From Pseudomonas helmanticensis (GTDB taxonomy: Bacteria; Pseudomonadota; Gammaproteobacteria; Pseudomonadales; Pseudomonadaceae), in NCBI RefSeq assembly GCF_900182985.1, contig NZ_FXUY01000001.1, positions 1,488,001-1,552,000 on the forward strand: a stretch of DNA of 64,000 bases, given 5' to 3'. The notes beneath the pieces were generated by a model, which worked only from the letters and a program-made list of their open reading frames with translations, made no database searches and was not told the DNA's origin. This document shows positions 43,124 through 53,687 of this stretch, one piece after another. How positions within the stretch are numbered: position 1 is the first letter of the stretch; each line of letters opens with the position of its first letter. The position numbers were made by a program, and so were the translations under genes.

Positions 43124-43975
43124 ATGGCAGCACTGCAGAACAGCACCCTCGACGCGCTGAAAAAACAACAAACGCAACTGCTGAACGAATGGATCAGCGG
43201 CCTCGAAGCCAGCGGCGCCACGCGCAACCTCAAGGATCACGACATCCAGCAACAGACTACCGAGTTCCTGCAGCTGGTGGTCAGTGGCATCGAGAACGAC
43301 AATGGCACCAACATCGGCGCACCGGGATGGGAAAGCACCCGCCAGTTTCTCGAAAAGCTCTCGCACAGTCGCGCCCTGCTCGGCCAGGACTCGCAACAGA
43401 CCGCGAGCTTCATCTTTGCCCTCAAAGGCCCGCTGTTCAATCTGCTGCAAGCGCACTACAAAGAACAACCGGCGTTGCTCGCTGAACAACTCTGGGAAGT
43501 CTCGGAGCTGCTCGATGCATTCGGCCTGCACACCATCCGTACTTTCCAGAAATCCCGCGAGGCGGTGATCAAGCGTCAGCAGGAAGAACTGCTGGAACTG
43601 TCGACCCCGGTGGTCAAACTGTGGGACGGCGTGCTGGCGCTGCCGATGATCGGCACCCTCGACTCACAACGCACGCAAGTGGTGATGGAGTCGTTGCTGC
43701 AACGTATCGTCGACACCGGTTCGGAAATCGCCATCATCGATATCACCGGCGTGCCGACCGTTGATACCCTCGTCGCCCAGCACCTGCTGAAAACCGTCAC
43801 CGCGATCCGCCTGATGGGCGCTGACTGCATCATCAGCGGCGTGCGCCCGCAAATCGCGCAGACCATCGTCCACCTCGGCCTCGACCTGCAAGGCGTGGTG
43901 ACCAAGGCCAATCTGGCCGACGCGCTGAAACTGGCGTTGACCCGCCTGGGTATCAGCCTCGTCAAGACGGTTTAA
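43124..43975 (+). CDS. rsbR: Stressosome protein RsbR (RsbRD-type N-domain plus STAS)
   Basis: 283 residues. The N-terminal sensor half (about 10-145, ATRNLKDHDIQQQTTEFLQL and RQFLEKLSHSRALLGQDSQQ) resembles the RsbRD_N domain rather than a globin. A linker helix ends EELLELSTPVVKLWDGV. The STAS domain has LPMIGTLDSQRTQVVMESLL, DITGVPTVDTLVAQHLL and SGVRPQIAQTIVHLGLDL. Aligned with Bacillus RsbRA, the two phospho-sites fall at Ser181 (Thr171 there) and Thr215 (Thr205 there), both phosphorylatable. It forms the stressosome shell with RsbS. First gene of the operon; the stop lies two bases before rsbS. Confidence 0.93.
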   Translation: MAALQNSTLDALKKQQTQLLNEWISGLEASGATRNLKDHDIQQQTTEFLQLVVSGIENDNGTNIGAPGWESTRQFLEKLSHSRALLGQDSQQTASFIFALKGPLFNLLQAHYKEQPALLAEQLWEVSELLDAFGLHTIRTFQKSREAVIKRQQEELLELSTPVVKLWDGVLALPMIGTLDSQRTQVVMESLLQRIVDTGSEIAIIDITGVPTVDTLVAQHLLKTVTAIRLMGADCIISGVRPQIAQTIVHLGLDLQGVVTKANLADALKLALTRLGISLVKTV

Positions 43976-43977
43976 GC

Positions 43978-44340
43978 ATGGAACGTATCCCGATTCTTCA
44001 AATGGGCGACTTCCTGCTGGTGACCATCCAGGTCGACATGCATGACCAACTCGCCCTGACCCTGCAGGACGACTTGTCCGAACGCATCAGCAAAACCTCG
44101 GCGCGCGGGGTGTTGATCGACATCTCGGCGCTGGACATGGTCGACTCGTTCATCGGCCGGATGATCGGCACGATTTCCGGCCTGTCGAAAATCATGGACG
44201 CCGAGACTGTATTGGTCGGTATGCAACCAGCGGTCGCGATCACCCTGGTTGAACTCGGTATGACCCTGCCCGGCGTCAGCACCGCCCTTAACGTCGAGCG
44301 CGGGATGAAACTGCTGCGGGAACGAGTATTGCAACAATGA
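43978..44340 (+). CDS. rsbS: Stressosome scaffold RsbS (STAS)
   Basis: 120 residues, a single STAS domain. The expected phospho-serine is Ser57 in DISALDMVDSFIGRM, matching Ser59 of Bacillus RsbS. VLVGMQPAVAITLVELGM is the family's second motif. With RsbR it builds the icosahedral stressosome that holds RsbT until stress triggers phosphorylation. The last bases overlap rsbT by ATGA. Confidence 0.94.
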   Translation: MERIPILQMGDFLLVTIQVDMHDQLALTLQDDLSERISKTSARGVLIDISALDMVDSFIGRMIGTISGLSKIMDAETVLVGMQPAVAITLVELGMTLPGVSTALNVERGMKLLRERVLQQ

Positions 44341-44741
44341 CCGTGCGCAGTAGCGGTACTCAACCCATTCATATCGAGCAAGACGTGGTGCTGGCGCGCC
44401 AGACTGCGCGCAAGCTGGCCACCGAATGCGGCATGCGCCTGATCGACTTGACCAAAATGGTCACGGCCGTCAGCGAACTGGCGCGCAACACCATGGTTTA
44501 CGGTGGTGGCGGCGACATGGACTGGCAAATTCTCGATGAGGACCACAAAGTCGGTCTGCGCCTGACGTTTCGCGATGAAGGCCCGGGCATTGCCGATATC
44601 AAACTGGCGATGACCGACGGCTGGACGTCCGGCAGCGGCATGGGGCTGGGCCTGACCGGTGCGAAACGGCTGGTCGAAGAGTTCGAACTCGACACCGAGC
44701 CCGGCAAAGGCACGCGCATAACGATCACCCGATGGACATGA
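44337..44741 (+). CDS. rsbT: Switch kinase RsbT
   Basis: 134 residues of the GHKL ATPase/anti-sigma kinase type. The N-box is SELARNTMVYGGGG, the G1 box DEGPGIADI and the G2 box SGMGLGLTGAKR. RsbT phosphorylates RsbR and RsbS, leaves the complex, and then activates a downstream partner (RsbU in Bacillus). No RsbU-type gene with an RsbT-binding domain follows here. The next gene overlaps by ten bases, and its product is the first candidate partner. Confidence 0.94.
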   Translation: MTVRSSGTQPIHIEQDVVLARQTARKLATECGMRLIDLTKMVTAVSELARNTMVYGGGGDMDWQILDEDHKVGLRLTFRDEGPGIADIKLAMTDGWTSGSGMGLGLTGAKRLVEEFELDTEPGKGTRITITRWT

Positions 44742-45748
44742 ATATCGTTGGGTCGCTGACCCAGGTTCTGCCGATCGAAGACAGCAGCCAGATCGGTCAT
44801 GCCCGCCGCACCGCGCAGCAACTCGCCGAACAGCATGGCTTTGATGAGCGTGATGCCGGGCGTGTCGCTTTGGTCGCCACTGAACTGGCGAGCAACGTGC
44901 TCAAACACGCCACGCACGGCGAACTGCATCTACGCGCATTACCTCGGCCCGCCGGTTTCGGCATCGAAATGCTCGCAGTCGATCGTGCGCAGGGTTTTGA
45001 TCTGCAGGCGTGCCTGGCCGACGGGTTTTCCACCGGCGGCACACAAGGCATCGGCCTCGGCGCGATATCGCGGCTGACCGAGGTGTTCGATGTCTACGCC
45101 GATGCCCGTGGCGCGGTGTTGTTGGCACGCCTTTACCCGCGCACCGACCGCGAACCGGACATCCGCTATGGCGTCAGTCAGCATTCGTTGCACGACGATC
45201 CGGCGTGCGGTGACGTCTGGTACCTGGCGTATGAAGGCGCCAGCATCAGCGCCCTGGTGATCGACGGCCTCGGTCATGGCGAGGAAGCCGAGCGCGCCGG
45301 TCGCGCCGGGGCGAAAGCCTTTGCCCTGACGCCGTTTGCCGATCCGGTGATGTTGATGGAAGACATGCACCGCGACATGATCGGCACCCGTGGCGGCGCC
45401 GTTGCGTTCACCCAGTTCGACGGCCGGCGCGATAGCCTGACGTTCGCCGGTGTCGGCAACATTGGCGCCAGCCTGATTGCCGCCGACAAATCGCGCGGGC
45501 TGGCCTCGCATCCAGGTATCGTCGGCGTGCAATACCGAAAAGCCCGGCCCTTTGACTATGCTCACGTGAACGGACATCTATTGATCATGTACAGCGACGG
45601 CTTGCAGTCCCGTTGGAATCTACAAGACTACCCCGGCCTGGTGCACCGCCATCCCGCCGTGATAGCCAGCGTCCTGCACCGCGATTTCAGTCGCGGGCGT
45701 GACGATGCAACGGTGCTGGTCGTTGCCCTGGAGGCCGCCCATGGCTGA
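44732..45748 (+). CDS. HATPase-SpoIIE fusion: anti-sigma-type kinase plus PP2C phosphatase (RsbX-like)
   Basis: 338 residues in two parts. Residues 1-135 form a GHKL ATPase (VATELASNVLKHATHGEL, then GGTQGIGLGAISRLTEVF). Residues 145-338 form a SpoIIE/PP2C phosphatase with metal motifs DPACGDVWYL and LVIDGLGHGEEAERAG, the YSDGLQSRW turn and GRDDATVLVV. Bacillus RsbX resets the stressosome by dephosphorylating RsbR/RsbS, and the phosphatase half fits that role. The added kinase half is extra compared with RsbX. It overlaps rsbT by ten bases and the histidine kinase gene by eight. Confidence 0.92.
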   Translation: MDMNIVGSLTQVLPIEDSSQIGHARRTAQQLAEQHGFDERDAGRVALVATELASNVLKHATHGELHLRALPRPAGFGIEMLAVDRAQGFDLQACLADGFSTGGTQGIGLGAISRLTEVFDVYADARGAVLLARLYPRTDREPDIRYGVSQHSLHDDPACGDVWYLAYEGASISALVIDGLGHGEEAERAGRAGAKAFALTPFADPVMLMEDMHRDMIGTRGGAVAFTQFDGRRDSLTFAGVGNIGASLIAADKSRGLASHPGIVGVQYRKARPFDYAHVNGHLLIMYSDGLQSRWNLQDYPGLVHRHPAVIASVLHRDFSRGRDDATVLVVALEAAHG

Positions 45749-46616
45749 GTCGCCCATTTTGAGCAGCGCTGAACAGACCGCGCTGATTGCGCAGTTGCAG
45801 AGCGAAACTGCGGCCCTGCGCGAAGAACTCGATGAGACCAATCAGGGCGTGCTGGCCCTGTACGCCGAACTCGACATACAGGCCGAAGAGCTGCGCCAGG
45901 CTTCGGACTTGAAGAGCCGTTTCCTGTCGTACATGAGCCATGAATTCCGCACGCCACTGGGTTCGATCCTGAGCATCAACAGCCTGCTCGCCGATGAACT
46001 CGACGGCCCGCTCAGCCCGGAACAGCACAAGCAGGTGGCGTTCGTCAGCACGGCGGCGCGCGAGCTCAGCGACATGGTCGATGACTTGCTCGATCTGGCC
46101 AAGATCGAGGCCGGGCGCATCACCATCTCACCGGCATGGTTCGACATGTTCGACCTGTTTTCCGCGTTGCGCGGGATGTTCCGGCCGATTGTCGATGCGA
46201 GCGCCGTCGACCTGATTTTCGAAGAGCCGATCGGCCTGCCGCGTCTGTACACCGACGACAAGAAACTCGCGCAGATCCTGCGTAATTTCATTTCCAACTC
46301 GCTGAAGTTCACCACCCGTGGCGAAGTGCGGGTCTCCGCACAGCTTGAAGGTGCGGATAAAGTGCGCTTTGCCGTCAGCGACACAGGAATCGGTATCGCG
46401 CCGGAGCTGCATGGCGCATTGTTCGAAGACTTTTCCCAGGTCGACTCGCCGTTGCAGAAACGTCTGCGCGGCACCGGCCTGGGCTTGTCCCTGTGTAAAC
46501 GCTTTGCCGCCCTGCTCGGTGGTGAAGTCGGGCTGGAAAGCACGCCGGGGGTCGGTTCGACCTTTTTCGTGATCATTCCGCTGGCGATCGCTCTGGAGAA
46601 CGTCGATGAAACGTGA
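45741..46616 (+). CDS. Soluble histidine kinase in the stressosome operon
   Basis: 291 residues. An N-terminal coiled coil (LIAQLQSETAALREELDETN, on to about residue 55) leads to a HisKA domain with His67 in LSYMSHEFRTPL. The HATPase domain has N box NFISNSLKFTT, DTGIGIAPELH and RGTGLGLSLCKRFAALLGG. There is no membrane segment or sensor domain, so the input must come from protein contact, presumably RsbT or the HATPase-PP2C protein. GGAGGCCGCCC precedes the ATG. It overlaps genes on both sides. Confidence 0.92.
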   Translation: MAESPILSSAEQTALIAQLQSETAALREELDETNQGVLALYAELDIQAEELRQASDLKSRFLSYMSHEFRTPLGSILSINSLLADELDGPLSPEQHKQVAFVSTAARELSDMVDDLLDLAKIEAGRITISPAWFDMFDLFSALRGMFRPIVDASAVDLIFEEPIGLPRLYTDDKKLAQILRNFISNSLKFTTRGEVRVSAQLEGADKVRFAVSDTGIGIAPELHGALFEDFSQVDSPLQKRLRGTGLGLSLCKRFAALLGGEVGLESTPGVGSTFFVIIPLAIALENVDET

Positions 46617-48549
46617 CATCCGCCTGTTGATCGTCGATGACAACGTCGCCACCCGCTACGCCCTGCGCCGTCGTCTGGAACGCCACGACTATGAAGTACT
46701 CGAAGCCGGTACCGGCAGCGAGGGCCTGGCGCTGATCGAGAGCGAGCCGCTCGACGCGCTGATCCTCGACGTCAATCTGCCGGACATGAGCGGTTTCGAC
46801 ATCGTCCGTATCCTCCGTGCTGATATCCGTACCGCCCTGCTGCCAGTGATTCACGTTTCCGCCGCATCGATCCAGACCGGCGATATCATCACTGGCCTCG
46901 ACGCCGGCGCCGACGCGTACCTGATTCACCCGGTCGACGCCGACGTGCTGCTGGCGACCCTGCGCACCTTGTTGCGCGTGCGCGACACGGAAAACGCCCT
47001 GCGCGAGAGCGAGGCGCGCTTCCGGGAGATTTTCGCCAATGTCTCTGCGCCGATTGCGGTGCTCGATGCCAGTCTGAAAGTGCATGAATGCAACCATGCC
47101 TTCGCGCAATTGATACTGGACAACAGTGATCCGCAGATCCTCCGTGAATGCTTCGCCGACGAGCAAAGCGCAATCCTCAACGAACTGCGCCTGCGGCTGG
47201 TCGATGGCGAGCGCTGGAAAGGCACGCTGAACATGCGCCTGCAGGGCGAGATTCGCGAGACTGAATGGCAGATCTCACCGTATCGCACGCCGGAGCTGAG
47301 CCTGGTGTTCGTCGAGGATGTCACCGAACACCGCCACCGTGAGCGCTTGCATCTGGCCCGCCTCGACGACACCACCACGCAACTGGCCAAGGAAACCGCC
47401 GAGCGTGTGCGTGCCGAGGCGCAATTGCTGCAAGTGCAGAAGATGGACGCGCTGGGCAAGTTGACGGGCGGCATCGCGCACGACTTCAACAACCTGCTGA
47501 CCGGGATCATCACCAGCCTCGAACTGATCCAGAAACGCATCGCCGATCAGCGCCTGGACAAAGTGCAGTTCTATACCGAGGCGGCGCTGAATTCGGCCAT
47601 GAGTGCGGCGTCCCTCACCCATCGTCTGCTGGCGTTTGCCCGCCAGCAGCCGCTGGACACGCGACCGGTGGACATCAACGAACAGGTGCGCTCGCTGGAA
47701 GAATTGCTGATGCGCACCATCGGCGAACGCATCACTCTCAAACTCGAGCTGACCAGCAAACCGGCGATTGCGCTGGTTGACCCGGTGCAACTGGAAAGCG
47801 CGGTGTTGAACCTGGTGATCAACGCCCGCGATGCGCTGCCTGCGGGCGGCAATATCTGGGTCAATACCTACGCGGCTTACTCGCATGGCGATCCGAATCT
47901 GGCCGATGGCGCGTATGTGGCGCTGTCGGTGCGCGATGACGGCACGGGGATTGAACACAGCGTGATCGACAAGGTCTTCGACCCGTTTTTCACCACCAAA
48001 CCGCTGGGCCAGGGCACTGGCCTGGGTTTGTCGACGATTTATGGTTTTGCCCGGCAGTCCGGCGGCGATGCGCATATTCGCAGCGTCGCGCGACGCGGTA
48101 CCGAGGTGACCATCATGTTGCCGGCGACCAGCGATCCAACCGGCGCCGACATTCCGGCAGCGGCTATCGATCCGCAAGGCACCGGTGAGCATGTGTTGAT
48201 TGTCGAGGACATGGCCTCGGTGCGCATGTTCGTCACCGAAGTGCTGGAGGACGCCGGTTATCGCTGCACCCAGGCGGCAGATATCGAAACGGCGCTGGAG
48301 CGCTTGCAGAACGATGCTTCGATCAATCTGCTGCTGACCGACGTTGGTCTACCGCGCATGAGCGGGCGCGAATTGGCGGATGTGGCGCGGGGCTGGCGTG
48401 AAGGCTTGCCGATCCTGTTCATGACCGGTTACGCGGAAACCGCGATCAATCGCCAGGTGTTTCTCGGCAGCGGCATGGACATGCTGGTCAAACCGTTCCA
48501 GATCAGCGAACTGCTCGACAAGGTCCGCCGCAGCCTCGACGGTAGTTAA
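46606..48549 (+). CDS. REC-PAS-histidine kinase-REC hybrid protein
   Basis: 647 residues. The N-terminal receiver (1-125) has Asp55 in LILDVNLPDMSG, but the usual Lys-Pro is His-Pro (LIHPVDADVL). A PAS domain follows (about 135-240). The HisKA domain has His292 in GGIAHDFNNLLTG, and the HATPase domain has NLVINARDALP and GTGLGLSTIYGFAR. The C-terminal receiver has Asp579 in LLTDVGLP and Lys629 in LVKPF. The neighbouring soluble kinase probably feeds the first receiver. The operon encodes no separate DNA-binding regulator, so the final output is not encoded here. Confidence 0.92.
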   Translation: MKRDIRLLIVDDNVATRYALRRRLERHDYEVLEAGTGSEGLALIESEPLDALILDVNLPDMSGFDIVRILRADIRTALLPVIHVSAASIQTGDIITGLDAGADAYLIHPVDADVLLATLRTLLRVRDTENALRESEARFREIFANVSAPIAVLDASLKVHECNHAFAQLILDNSDPQILRECFADEQSAILNELRLRLVDGERWKGTLNMRLQGEIRETEWQISPYRTPELSLVFVEDVTEHRHRERLHLARLDDTTTQLAKETAERVRAEAQLLQVQKMDALGKLTGGIAHDFNNLLTGIITSLELIQKRIADQRLDKVQFYTEAALNSAMSAASLTHRLLAFARQQPLDTRPVDINEQVRSLEELLMRTIGERITLKLELTSKPAIALVDPVQLESAVLNLVINARDALPAGGNIWVNTYAAYSHGDPNLADGAYVALSVRDDGTGIEHSVIDKVFDPFFTTKPLGQGTGLGLSTIYGFARQSGGDAHIRSVARRGTEVTIMLPATSDPTGADIPAAAIDPQGTGEHVLIVEDMASVRMFVTEVLEDAGYRCTQAADIETALERLQNDASINLLLTDVGLPRMSGRELADVARGWREGLPILFMTGYAETAINRQVFLGSGMDMLVKPFQISELLDKVRRSLDGS

Positions 48550-48554
48550 AAGCC

Positions 48555-48626
48555 AAAGATCGCAGCCTGCGGCAGCGCCTACAGGTACTCATTCATCCCT
48601 GAGCTGCCGCAGGCTGCGATCTTTTT
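48555..48626. repeat. REP-type inverted repeat acting as terminator between convergent genes
   Basis: Perfect 22-bp arms (aaagatcgcagcctgcggca plus gc, and its complement) flank a 26-base centre. The T run at the right end and the A run at the left give intrinsic-terminator shapes on both strands. It separates the stressosome operon from the uvrA-like gene. Confidence 0.88.
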
Positions 48627-51441: not shown

Positions 51442-53553
51442 TCATGCACTGAGCACCGCACGAATCATCTGCAACATCGCCTCTGGGCTGTACGGTTTGC
51501 CCAGCAGATGCGTGTCGGGACTCAACTGGTGATTGCGCGAAATGATGTCGCGGGTATGCCCGGAGGTGAACAGCACCGGCACCGGCGGCGTTTGTACTTT
51601 GGCCCAGGCAGCCAGATCGGAGCTTTTGATCAGGCCGGGCATGACCACGTCAGTGAAGATCAGATCCACCGCAACGCCTTCCAGCAACATCTGCATCGCC
51701 ATGTCGCCATTGGCGGCGGTCAACACCTGATAACCCTCTTCGCGCAGCAACTCGACTGCCGAGGCGCGCACCGCTTCGTTGTCCTCGACCACCAGAATGC
51801 TTTCGTGGCCGCCGTTCTGCTGCCTCTGCAGGTGGGGCGATTCATCCAGAACCGGGCGCAAACTGCGCGGGAAGTACAACTGCACCCGCGTGCCCTCACC
51901 AACCGTGCTGTCAATCTCGACGTGGCCGCCGCTCTGTTTGACGAAGCCGAAAACCATGCTCAAGCCCAGCCCGGTGCCCTGGCCGTCGGCCTTGGTGGTG
52001 AAGAAGGGTTCGAACACCTGCTCGAGAATCTGTGGCGCAATACCACCGCCGGTATCACTCACCGCGACCCGGACAAACTCGCCGGGGACGATGCCTTTGC
52101 CGCTGCAAAACTCGCGGTCGAGCGGCACGTTGGCGGCGCTGAGACCAATGGTGCCCTCGCCTTGCATGGCGTCGCGGGCGTTGATCGCCAGGTTGAGAAT
52201 GGCGTTTTCCAGTTGATTGCGGTCAACGTTGATGTGCCACGGCACCGGCGGCAGCTGCACATCGATCTGAATGGTTTCGCCCAGCGCGCGCTGGAGCAAT
52301 TCGCCGACGCCTTCGAAAATCTGCTGCGGATTGCACACCGCCGGCGACAGCGGTTGCCGACGGGCGAACGCAAGCAGTTGCGAAGACAGCTTGGCGCCAC
52401 GCTCGACCGCCGCCAGCGAGGCGCTGACGCGGCGCTGCACATTGGCATTTTCCGGCTCATGCCGGGCCAGTAAATGCAGATTGCCGGCAATCACTTGCAG
52501 CAGGTTATTGAAGTCGTGCGCGACGCCTCCGGTGAGACCGCCAATGGCTTCGAGCTTCTGCGACTGGCGCAGTTGCTCTTCCGCTGCCAGCCGCGCCTCG
52601 ACTTCTTCGGCGACGCGCTGTTCGAGGTTGCGGGTAAATCTGAGCAGGGATTCTTCAGCGTTCTTGCGCTCATGGATGTCGATCAGCACGCCGGGAAAAC
52701 GCAGCGGCTCGCCGTGCTCGTTGAATTCGCAACCGCCGCTGGCCAGCACCCACAGATAACTGCCATCGCTGCGCCGGACGCGGTATTCGGCGTTGTACGG
52801 CTCGCCGGTCTGCACCGAATGGGCAACGCGCTCCTGCACCCAGGCGGAGTCGTCGGGATGAATGCGCGACTCGGCGATATCTTGCCGCAGATTGCTCAAG
52901 TCCTGGTCGGGCGGATAGGAGAACGTGCGGGCGAAACGCTCGTCGGCCGACAGCGTATTGTTCTTCACGTCCCAGACGAACGAACCGAGCAAAGCCCCGG
53001 CATTCAAGGCCAGGCGCACCCGTTCGTTGTCGGCGCGATAAGCATGTTCGGCGGCTTGGCGCAGGCGTTCGGAATGCATGAATTCGGTGGTTTCGACCAC
53101 CATCGCCATGACCCCGGCGGGCATCCCGTCATCATTCGCCACCGGGCTGTAATACAGATCCATCCAGACGTCTTCAGGCACGCCATCGCGCAGCAGCACC
53201 AGCTCTTTATTGCGAAACGACAACGTGCCGCCGGCCAGACAGGTATCAACCACATGCCGGTTGAACTCGGCGACTTCCGGCCAGCCCAGTTCTACCGGTG
53301 AACCGAGCAGATACGGATGCCGACCACCGGCAAATATCGAGTAGGCGTCGTTGTAGATCATGTAGCCGGAGCGACCCCAGAGCATGACCATCGGCAGCGG
53401 CGACGCGAGCATCAATTGCACCGCACTGCACAGGCTGGCCGGCCAGCTATTGAGCGGACCGAGTTCGGTAGGACTCCAGTCGAACGCACAAATACGCCCG
53501 GCCATCTCGCCTTTCCAGCCGTCACAACCGTGGCTATCGGATAAAAACTGCAT
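51442..53553 (-). CDS. PAS-PAS hybrid histidine kinase
   Basis: 703 residues with no membrane segment. A first PAS domain (about 15-160, WKGEMAGRICAFDWSPTELG and LPMVMLWGRSGYMIYND) precedes a PAS-PAC unit (about 180-300, AEYRVRRSDGSYLWVLASGG). HisKA has His346 in TGGVAHDFNNLLQVI, HATPase has LNLAINARDAM and GTGLGLSMVFGFVKQSGG, and the C-terminal receiver has Asp635 in LIFTDVVMPG and Lys in LLGKPYS. It is a cytoplasmic sensor, possibly light- or redox-linked by analogy with similar PAS kinases. No cofactor residue (such as a NCRFLQ flavin motif) was seen. The start at 53553 lacks a good ribosome binding site. Confidence 0.9.
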   Translation of the reverse strand: MQFLSDSHGCDGWKGEMAGRICAFDWSPTELGPLNSWPASLCSAVQLMLASPLPMVMLWGRSGYMIYNDAYSIFAGGRHPYLLGSPVELGWPEVAEFNRHVVDTCLAGGTLSFRNKELVLLRDGVPEDVWMDLYYSPVANDDGMPAGVMAMVVETTEFMHSERLRQAAEHAYRADNERVRLALNAGALLGSFVWDVKNNTLSADERFARTFSYPPDQDLSNLRQDIAESRIHPDDSAWVQERVAHSVQTGEPYNAEYRVRRSDGSYLWVLASGGCEFNEHGEPLRFPGVLIDIHERKNAEESLLRFTRNLEQRVAEEVEARLAAEEQLRQSQKLEAIGGLTGGVAHDFNNLLQVIAGNLHLLARHEPENANVQRRVSASLAAVERGAKLSSQLLAFARRQPLSPAVCNPQQIFEGVGELLQRALGETIQIDVQLPPVPWHINVDRNQLENAILNLAINARDAMQGEGTIGLSAANVPLDREFCSGKGIVPGEFVRVAVSDTGGGIAPQILEQVFEPFFTTKADGQGTGLGLSMVFGFVKQSGGHVEIDSTVGEGTRVQLYFPRSLRPVLDESPHLQRQQNGGHESILVVEDNEAVRASAVELLREEGYQVLTAANGDMAMQMLLEGVAVDLIFTDVVMPGLIKSSDLAAWAKVQTPPVPVLFTSGHTRDIISRNHQLSPDTHLLGKPYSPEAMLQMIRAVLSA

Positions 53554-53687
53554 CGTCTGACTCAGTGTCCTGTGCTGATTGCCCGGTAATTTACGACGCC
53601 AATACAACACGACGCCCGTCTGTTTCGAGCGTCTTGCGTCGTATTGGTTTCATATGAGGTATAGCCGATTTCATCCCCGTCCGGGGA

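Follow-up and report, generated by a model that had tools for sequence, protein, structure and literature searches.

A complete Gram-negative stressosome module in Pseudomonas helmanticensis, with a conserved kinase linker helix as a clue to its coupling

Organization of the operon

In a window of 64,000 nucleotides from Pseudomonas helmanticensis, six genes were found on one strand at positions 43124-48549 in the order rsbR-rsbS-rsbT-(HATPase-PP2C)-HK-(REC-PAS-HK-REC) (Table 1). As described in the original prediction, the genes overlapped or nearly touched, with spacings of +2, -4, -10, -8, and -11 bases. The third codon position was the richest in GC for all six open reading frames. Pfam searches identified RsbRD_N and STAS in RsbR, STAS in RsbS, HATPase_c in RsbT, HATPase_c_2 in the fourth gene product, HisKA and HATPase_c in the soluble kinase, and two REC, PAS, HisKA, and HATPase_c in the hybrid. 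When the gene order was checked across Pseudomonas, as had been suggested, all 80 loci read kept the six genes in the same order on one strand, and because of this the arrangement was far from chance. To obtain these loci, 79 genomes were picked by hand among the 155 positive ones in Pseudomonas, with G235 supplying two; the reading covered 7 of the 11 genomes in which the hybrid had no match. The resulting 81 alignment rows were divided into 74 of variant A and seven of variant B, and alignment A3 was made without P0119, which appears frame-shifted. The possible terminator was located directly past the last stop codon; this repeat was absent from the list of the terminator scan, which had a loop limit of 8. 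The promoter scan gave 2 sites against 1.5 expected, with none upstream of rsbR.

Table 1. Positions in the window of the genes and features of the operon
Feature	Position	Strand	Evidence
rsbR: N-terminal RsbRD_N sensor and STAS, presumed phospho-sites Ser181 and Thr215	43124..43975	+	Pfam, phmmer, Foldseek, residues
rsbS: single STAS domain, presumed phospho-site Ser57	43978..44340	+	Pfam STAS 2.3e-8; Ser57 in 81/81 rows
rsbT: GHKL serine kinase / switch protein	44337..44741	+	Pfam HATPase_c 3e-12; residues in 81/81 rows
HATPase-PP2C fusion: RsbT-paralogous domain and RsbX-like phosphatase (presumed reset phosphatase)	44732..45748	+	Pfam, PDB, residues
Soluble histidine kinase, phospho-acceptor His67, without RsbU_N	45741..46616	+	HisKA 6.7e-17, HATPase_c 1.3e-26
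Kinase linker helix, residues 26-57, core TNQGVLALYAEL (residues 33-44), proposed coupling element	45816..45911	+	Conservation, motif
Hybrid kinase REC1(Asp55, atypical His108)-PAS-HisKA(His292)-HATPase-REC2(Asp579)	46606..48549	+	Pfam, residues
Possible terminator: perfect 22-base inverted repeat, 26-base loop, then T residues	48555..48624	+	Read in sequence

Stressosome core and the HATPase-PP2C gene

RsbR matched PF14361 (1.1e-19) and PF01740 (4.2e-14). In the PDB, phmmer matched it to the RsbR proteins of Listeria and Vibrio, with residues 13-274 aligned to Listeria RsbR, and 7b0u was the best Foldseek match (2e-12). When RsbR was aligned with its Listeria counterpart, Ser181 and Thr215 fell opposite Thr residues of that protein; we take these positions to be the phospho-sites of RsbR, and Ser57 to be that of RsbS. 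All three residues were present in 81 of 81 rows, which agrees with the earlier claim that the presumed phospho-sites are kept. The predicted ATP site of RsbT was likewise intact in every row (N-box E47/N51 and D80/G82/G84). The N-domain of RsbR contained no invariant His, as His136 occurred in 72 of 74 variant A rows and in none of the seven variant B rows, and a globin fold was barely hinted at by Foldseek (5ohf at rank 48, E 0.024).

The PP2C half of the fourth gene product had no Pfam match at E<=0.001, and it matched the solved phosphatases SpoIIE (5.5e-13) and RsbX (9e-4) in the PDB; its residues Asp178, Asp289, Asp324, and Asp325 were present in all 81 rows. The HATPase half matched HATPase_c_2 (8.4e-11) and was placed as a paralogue of RsbT in the domain tree (X group 86/85). 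Mean entropies were 0.82 for the HATPase half, 0.90 for the PP2C half, and 0.43 for RsbT, and the first glycine of the G1 box of the HATPase half was replaced by Ala in 46 of 74 rows. Loci L188, L189, and L191 encoded the phosphatase on its own, as a protein of 194-199 aa whose gene occupied the RsbX position. The HATPase half and RsbT are equally good candidates for a partner of the kinase linker described below. An RsbR with sensor and STAS domains, a single-STAS RsbS, a GHKL RsbT, and a neighbouring RsbX-like PP2C, as in RSTX modules, were thus all recognized, and judged by gene content and residues the locus is a complete RsbRST(X)-type Gram-negative stressosome module.

Absence of a sigma-B pathway

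The prediction that RsbU, RsbV, and RsbW are missing held at the locus, but the genome contained two other PP2C/STAS loci, namely a REC-PP2C-HATPase with a STAS protein (G000:C1 near 2547-2549 kb) and a REC-PP2C with a STAS protein (near 76-77 kb). No sigma-B gene was found by Pfam at the locus, again as predicted, and no sigma factor of the genome exceeded the SigB/F/G cut-off: the best of seven TIGR02980 matches scored 136 bits where 234 were required. A sigma-B target elsewhere in the genome was rejected on this ground. In the soluble kinase only HisKA and HATPase_c were detected at E<=1, and RsbU_N had no match in the whole host genome at the same threshold.

A conserved linker helix in the soluble kinase

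The linker of the soluble kinase carried the nearly invariant motif TNxGVxALYxEL. Among the 74 rows, 21 of the 32 positions in residues 26-57 were invariant, and the mean entropy was 0.29 for this linker, 0.24 for the HisKA domain of the same kinase, and 0.71 for the linker preceding HisKA in the hybrid; the kinase linker was thus conserved to about the same degree as the catalytic core. Residue Thr33 was invariant in these rows. All 80 module kinases contained the motif, which was absent from the 4788 other open reading frames of those loci. Within the host genome the linker was unique (1.3e-23, next best 0.129). With at most 17 candidates scored per genome, the profile marked 17 of 398 genomes of the phylum. 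Each of these belonged to the 32 that carry the HATPase-PP2C gene, and the linker lay about 0.6 kb or less downstream of that gene. A weak extra match in G685 (C1:502702, 9.7e-4) was distant from the module. In the other 15 of the 32 genomes the linker was absent; the nine of these that were read had other outputs or none recognised. Databases name the kinase "sensor histidine kinase", "KdpD", "LuxQ", or "ATP-binding protein".

The seven variant-B loci of the genus had an RsbT-like domain joined to the N-terminal side of the linker, as did D. radiodurans and six more loci (L171, L174, L175, L176, L178, and L179). The fused domains formed one clade in the domain tree (14 rows, two of them from one locus, since L170 and L051 are the same locus; 100/97), and the kinase cores attached to them were of the HK, hybrid, and HisKA_2/HWE types. 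This tree excluded four CA-domain rows of HKs, the variant-A kinases, which have no such domain, the variant-B locus L055, and the L177 kinase domain, whose match covered fewer than 75 positions. The AlphaFold2 model of a fused kinase, a monomer only, predicted one continuous helix (residues 162-248) running from the RsbT-like domain to HisKA, with a linker pLDDT of about 60-75 and a pTM of 0.41. The best 50 Foldseek matches listed for this kinase were histidine kinases, none of them on its N-domain. The L177 kinase contained a clear but degenerate RsbT-like domain (65.8 bits), in which the N-box and the glycine boxes were lost and the linker was kept. Degenerate domains were also suggested in the L186 kinase (14.8 bits) and the L190 GGDEF-EAL protein (16.8 bits), with 5.6 bits as the best of 400 shuffles; the L189 output was at noise level (4.7 bits), and no such domain was found in L183, L184, L187, or L188.

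Distribution and comparison with known systems

Of 398 genomes of the genus, 155 (more than a third) carried the HATPase-PP2C gene, and this RsbR occurred in 154, each of which also had that gene; the module is therefore not special to this host. Related modules were found in other Pseudomonadota, where 20 of the 26 positive genomes outside the genus were read, and on plasmid pMP1 of Deinococcus radiodurans, and the same gene order was annotated or read on plasmid records from three other genera. Neither RsbS nor RsbT was recognised in L190, and L191 had a short RsbR and no recognised RsbS.

The RSTX modules of Vibrio vulnificus and V. brasiliensis similarly encode RsbR, RsbS, RsbT, and, in V. 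vulnificus, an RsbX-like phosphatase, directly followed by two-component-type genes, according to the available text of PMC9237108, PMC10014275, and PMC4976288; neither RsbU nor SigB belongs to them in the accessible part of PMC9237108. As these sources describe them, the sensor of the Vibrio RsbR is a haem globin and the RsbX consists of a single domain, whereas the Pseudomonas RsbR has RsbRD_N and the PP2C is fused to an RsbT-like HATPase_c_2; the downstream pair of V. vulnificus is thought to act on c-di-GMP, in contrast to the soluble kinase and REC-PAS-HK-REC hybrid found here. The rsbRSTUVW-sigB-rsbX operons of Bacillus and Listeria share the RsbR/S/T core, the RsbX-like phosphatase, and the presumed phospho-sites, but the Pseudomonas locus lacks RsbU_N, RsbV, RsbW, and SigB. 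The histidine kinases with RsbU_N reported from stressosome operons in the accessible parts of PMC12143880 and PMC9237108 are also encoded immediately downstream as presumed RsbT targets; the Pseudomonas kinase has the conserved linker instead, and those of sister lineages the fused RsbT-like domain. The pMP1 module (DRO_RS15235-RS15260) comprises, in this order, RsbR, a STAS protein, an anti-sigma regulatory factor, HATPase-PP2C, HATPase_c_2-linker-HisKA-HATPase-REC, and REC-HisKA-HATPase; its kinase combines an RsbT-like domain with REC, as in variant B, but its last protein has neither PAS nor a second REC. This module is probably the operon beside the histidine kinases DR_B0028/DR_B0029 in the available text of PMC6501615. 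DR_B0028 is reported there as elevated during recovery from vacuum, and PMC7597052 reports a higher abundance of DR_B0029 following orbit exposure.

Proposed mechanism and alternatives

Given the complete module, the tight linkage of the two-component genes, and the sister modules whose kinase carries a fused RsbT-like domain, a switch of the kinase by RsbT is the most plausible interpretation. We propose a stressosome module with a histidine-kinase cascade as its output, in which RsbT would act on the soluble kinase by docking on its conserved linker helix (probability about 0.55). Stressosome assembly, the release and docking of RsbT, the direction of regulation, the phosphate flow, and the final output are drawn here as we infer them. 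RsbR and RsbS would build the core and retain RsbT; upon a signal at the RsbR N-domain, RsbT would phosphorylate RsbS (Ser57) and RsbR (Ser181/Thr215) and be freed. Free RsbT would then dock on the kinase linker and shift the kinase/phosphatase balance. This would parallel its action on RsbU, reported in the available text of PMC12143880 to run through a coiled-coil linker, except that no RsbU_N domain is involved here. The kinase would signal to the hybrid via the atypical receiver REC1, and the hybrid would hand phosphate via His292 and Asp579 to a partner encoded outside the operon. The PP2C half of the fourth gene product would reset the STAS proteins, and its HATPase half, as a second RsbT paralogue, may compete with RsbT.

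Against docking, no positive interaction of RsbT with a downstream kinase was obtained in V. vulnificus, as stated in the available part of PMC9237108, where Heinz et al. suggest phosphorylation for kinases without RsbU_N. By this account RsbT would Ser/Thr-phosphorylate the kinase through a transient contact, and its intact predicted ATP site and the invariant Thr33 as a possible target are consistent with it. We consider this distinctly unlikely: the L177 domain has lost its nucleotide-site boxes while the linker stays, which fits docking better than catalysis. The HATPase-PP2C protein, and not RsbT, might also be the messenger, in which case its RsbT-like half would bind either the kinase linker or the stressosome, while its phosphatase half would act on a downstream target. 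Its paralogy with RsbT, its intact PP2C residues, and possible target STAS proteins encoded elsewhere in the genome speak for this role. However, the phosphatase half resembles SpoIIE and RsbX and has separate counterparts in the RsbX position, RsbX resets the stressosome in Bacillus as far as the available text of PMC9237108 reports, and the HATPase half varies more than RsbT and often lacks the first G1 glycine, which makes the role unlikely.

The stressosome and the kinases could instead be merely co-expressed, with separate targets and no direct coupling. An intact hybrid gene remained in G046 and G058 after loss of the rest of the module, and G207 carried an additional rsbR-rsbS-rsbT copy without kinases. 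Such independence is nevertheless very unlikely given the unbroken order in the genus and on the plasmids of other genera, and the confinement of the linker to module-bearing genomes among the 398 of the phylum. The docking of RsbT on the kinase remains preferred, and its new element is the helical linker, known so far from such modules only, which the conservation pattern presents as a clue to coupling. More tentatively, and with somewhat less than even confidence, the TNxGVxALYxEL helix may serve specifically to couple stressosomes to effectors in place of RsbU_N, in front of kinases of at least two kinds (and perhaps, in weaker form, of the PAS-GGDEF-EAL protein of L183) in Pseudomonadota and Deinococcota. 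It would accept free RsbT or else a fused RsbT-like domain that was acquired once, and the cascade would open with a conserved receiver that has lost the catalytic Lys. The accessible text of PMC9237108 detected no RsbU_N in most downstream proteins considered and left the signal route of RsbU-less stressosomes open. Because the linker was seen only in module-bearing genomes and is fused naturally to an RsbT-like domain, this coupling question is open to direct test, in Pseudomonas and in D. radiodurans R1, and a role would be assigned to a kinase that now bears generic database names.

Phosphate flow through the hybrid kinase

Both residues of the phosphotransfer originally predicted, His67 of the kinase and Asp55 of the hybrid, were present as stated. 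The catalytic Lys of REC1, however, was replaced by His108 in 81 of 81 rows, and eight relatives that do not belong to Pseudomonas carried His, Gln, or Ala at this position; both findings weaken a simple phosphorelay from His67 to Asp55. Of the proposal that RsbT switches a two-component relay, the tight linkage and the fused RsbT-like domain thus favor the switch, while the simple relay step appears doubtful. The hybrid may also function alone, because G046 and G058 keep only this gene of the module. In L181, a relative of the same class, a LuxR-type response regulator followed the hybrid (L181:9872-10753). The best match to this regulator among 25 in the host genome (G000:C1:5025485, 41%) was rejected as an output for its neighbourhood, since it adjoins a HATPase_c_2 match (5025142-5025285) in an 810-codon frame.

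Operon architecture and distribution

Analysis of the window bore out the six-gene set and layout of the original prediction, and the domain content agreed by Pfam. Neighbouring genes overlapped by 4 to 11 bases, except rsbR and rsbS, which were 2 bases apart. The PP2C half of gene 4 had no Pfam match at E<=0.001; its protein matched the solved SpoIIE and RsbX phosphatases. Residues 13-274 of RsbR matched the solved Listeria RsbR, and the predicted RsbR structure (mean pLDDT 80.4, built on a three-row alignment) gave the Listeria stressosome entry 7b0u as the top Foldseek match.

Features and their coordinates (window positions unless a contig is named)
Feature	Position	Strand	Description
Six-gene operon	43124-48549	+	rsbR to hybrid kinase gene
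Inverted repeat	48555-48624		22-base perfect repeat around a loop of 26 bases, following the final stop codon; T residues next
Hybrid kinase	51442-53610	-	PAS-PAS-HisKA-HATPase-REC, beyond the UvrA-like gene
Second rsbR-rsbS-rsbT copy (L139)	G207:C1:2718000-2732000		73%, 93% and about 55% identity

Among 398 genomes of the genus, taken as Pseudomonas on the basis of near-identical kinases that carry names, and with the window genome counted, the HATPase-PP2C protein was found in 155 (E<=1e-10), RsbR in 154 (1e-20) and the hybrid kinase in 146 (1e-120). Set comparison showed that all 154 RsbR-bearing genomes carried the HATPase-PP2C gene and 143 also the hybrid, with no hybrid match at 1e-120 in 11; the hybrid of G316 was broken into frames. 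The gene order held across Pseudomonas, since each of the 80 loci read from 79 module-bearing genomes had all six genes, with their order unchanged and all on a single strand. These comprised 73 window-like loci (variant A) and seven diverged loci (variant B), the latter from seven of the 11 genomes lacking a hybrid match at the cut-off. A UvrA-like gene (Pfam) lay downstream of the module in the window and near it in 28/80 loci; because the flanking genes varied, the operon was regarded as a unit sitting at different places. The operon is thus common and not peculiar to one host. Its general kind is already known: PMC9237108 (section 10) and PMC10014275 describe stressosome modules with outputs of the two-component or c-di-GMP kind, citing Pane-Farre et al. 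2005 and 2017. This particular operon was not recognised in titles or abstract beginnings of the open-licence PMC papers listed for stressosome-Pseudomonas, RsbT-two-component, RsbRST-histidine kinase and similar topics. The new and testable parts are the conserved kinase linker, the RsbT-like fusion and the atypical receiver.

Three further loci (L136-L138, in G046, G058 and G178) retained the hybrid gene and had lost most of the module. Two of these hybrids were intact at 87-88% and one was a 3' part only, joined to the rsbR start; G046 also kept a scrap of gene 4. Beside the second rsbRST copy of L139, genes 4-6 had no matches within the 14 kb read.

Conserved residues and other phosphatase pairs

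Across 81 aligned rows, one from the window and the others from the 80 loci, the phospho-sites said to be kept, Ser181 and Thr215 of RsbR and Ser57 of RsbS, were present in every row. The same was true of E47/N51 of RsbT, Asp178/Asp289/Asp324/Asp325 of the PP2C domain, His67 of the soluble kinase and Asp55 of the hybrid. The claim that RsbU and sigma-B were missing stood in that no RsbU_N was found in the genome at E<=1 and none of its sigma factors scored over the SigBFG cut-off, but SpoIIE-family phosphatases with STAS partners occurred at two other places in the genome. One pair comprised a REC-PP2C-HATPase protein (570 aa) and a STAS protein (101 aa), and the other a REC-PP2C protein (393 aa) and a STAS protein (160 aa); we take them to resemble HsbR/HsbA and RssB/RssC of P. 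aeruginosa. A third SpoIIE match was below the cut-off (22 of 25 bits).

A conserved kinase linker and an RsbT-like domain fused to it in sister lineages

No domains beyond HisKA and HATPase_c were found in the soluble kinase, even at E<=1. Directly before HisKA, a linker of residues 26-57 was almost invariant, with 21/32 positions fixed and a mean entropy of 0.29 (74 variant-A rows), compared with 1.73 for the first 22 residues and 0.24 for HisKA. For the hybrid's own linker ahead of HisKA, those genomes gave 7/39 positions fixed and an entropy of 0.71. Among 32-residue windows of the kinase the linker ranked 101/259, windows reaching into HisKA being more conserved. The linker motif TNxGVxALYxEL (residues 33-44) was present in 80/80 module kinases, in 0/4788 other ORFs (>=80 codons) of the same loci and in 11/20 loci outside the genus (L172-L191); neither 12-letter form was found in open-licence PMC papers. 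In the window genome the second-best linker match reached only E 0.129. A profile made from 11 linkers matched 17/398 phylum genomes at E<=1e-3, all among the 32 with the HATPase-PP2C gene; the remaining 366 genomes had no match. In these 17, the linker lay about 0.6 kb or less downstream of that gene, with main matches of 2.3e-19 or better; an extra weak match (9.7e-4) lay elsewhere in the genome of G685. The profile rows came from nine of the 17 genomes, and the eight that contributed none included close kin of rows.

In variant B, and in several modules from other genera, the kinase consisted of an RsbT-like HATPase_c_2 domain, the same linker and the kinase core. The domain tree placed the kinase-fused domains (14 rows, 13 different) in one clade (support 100/97), set apart from both RsbT and the HATPase-PP2C group (86/85), although many forks were weak because there were only 134 columns. 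The kinase cores joined to this domain were of the HK type, of the hybrid type (L178, L179) or, in L182, of the HisKA_2/HWE type; L182 showed no recognisable linker motif. In L177 the RsbT-like domain was degenerate and the linker retained. The AlphaFold2 model of the P. typographi fused kinase (mean pLDDT 80.1, linker about 60-75, pTM 0.41) had an unbroken helix (162-248) that joined the RsbT-like domain to HisKA by way of the linker.

PMC12143880 describes activation of Bacillus RsbU by RsbT through ordering of a coiled-coil linker. By analogy, the simplest reading is that RsbT acts on the kinase linker: RsbT would be released from the RsbR/RsbS complex and would engage the linker helix of the soluble kinase, and in sister lineages an RsbT-like domain would be built into the kinase itself. 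PMC9237108 suggests instead phosphorylation of downstream proteins by RsbT, and reports RsbU_N as undetected in the majority of those considered. Next in line was a LuxR-type response regulator in one relative (L181) and a receiver-like protein of 118 aa in L176, and GGDEF-EAL or HK-REC-REC-Hpt proteins occurred in wider-family modules.

The first receiver of the hybrid

Receivers carry a catalytic Lys at a position that in the first receiver of the hybrid was, unexpectedly, His108 in 81/81 rows. All three plasmid modules that were read also had His here, and eight relatives outside the genus had His (6), Gln (1) or Ala (1), never Lys. The second receiver appeared canonical, with Asp535 and Asp579 in 74/74 variant-A rows, Thr607 or Ser in 74/74, and Lys629 read in the window. 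Since His replaced the catalytic Lys, the phosphotransfer from His67 to Asp55 proposed earlier may not be a standard relay step, and the first receiver may serve for docking or allosteric control.

Neighbouring genes and plasmid-borne modules

A close match (>=60% over 500 aa) of the hybrid kinase beyond the UvrA-like gene was found near the module in 28/80 loci, and this kinase could be either a syntenic neighbour or an extra partner. A gene for 746-800 aa lay directly downstream of the hybrid in 6/80 loci (L059, L065, L066, L121, L128 and L132). In L121, the one locus where it was run through Pfam, it encoded a bacteriophytochrome (PAS_2-GAF-PHY-HisKA-HATPase), which makes a light link of the module possible. 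It was followed in five of the six loci by a 153-aa protein of one family, a receiver by Pfam in L065. Six-gene modules of the same order, recognised from annotation and, in part, from domain scans, were carried on plasmids of Xanthomonas vasicola (pXVH29), Variovorax paradoxus and D. radiodurans (pMP1), one of them only 29 kb, and transfer of the module among distant hosts is possible. PMC6501615 describes the D. radiodurans kinases DR_B0028 and DR_B0029 as thought to be co-regulated with an anti-sigma regulation system operon; the pMP1 module region fits this description, with a putative locus-tag correspondence.
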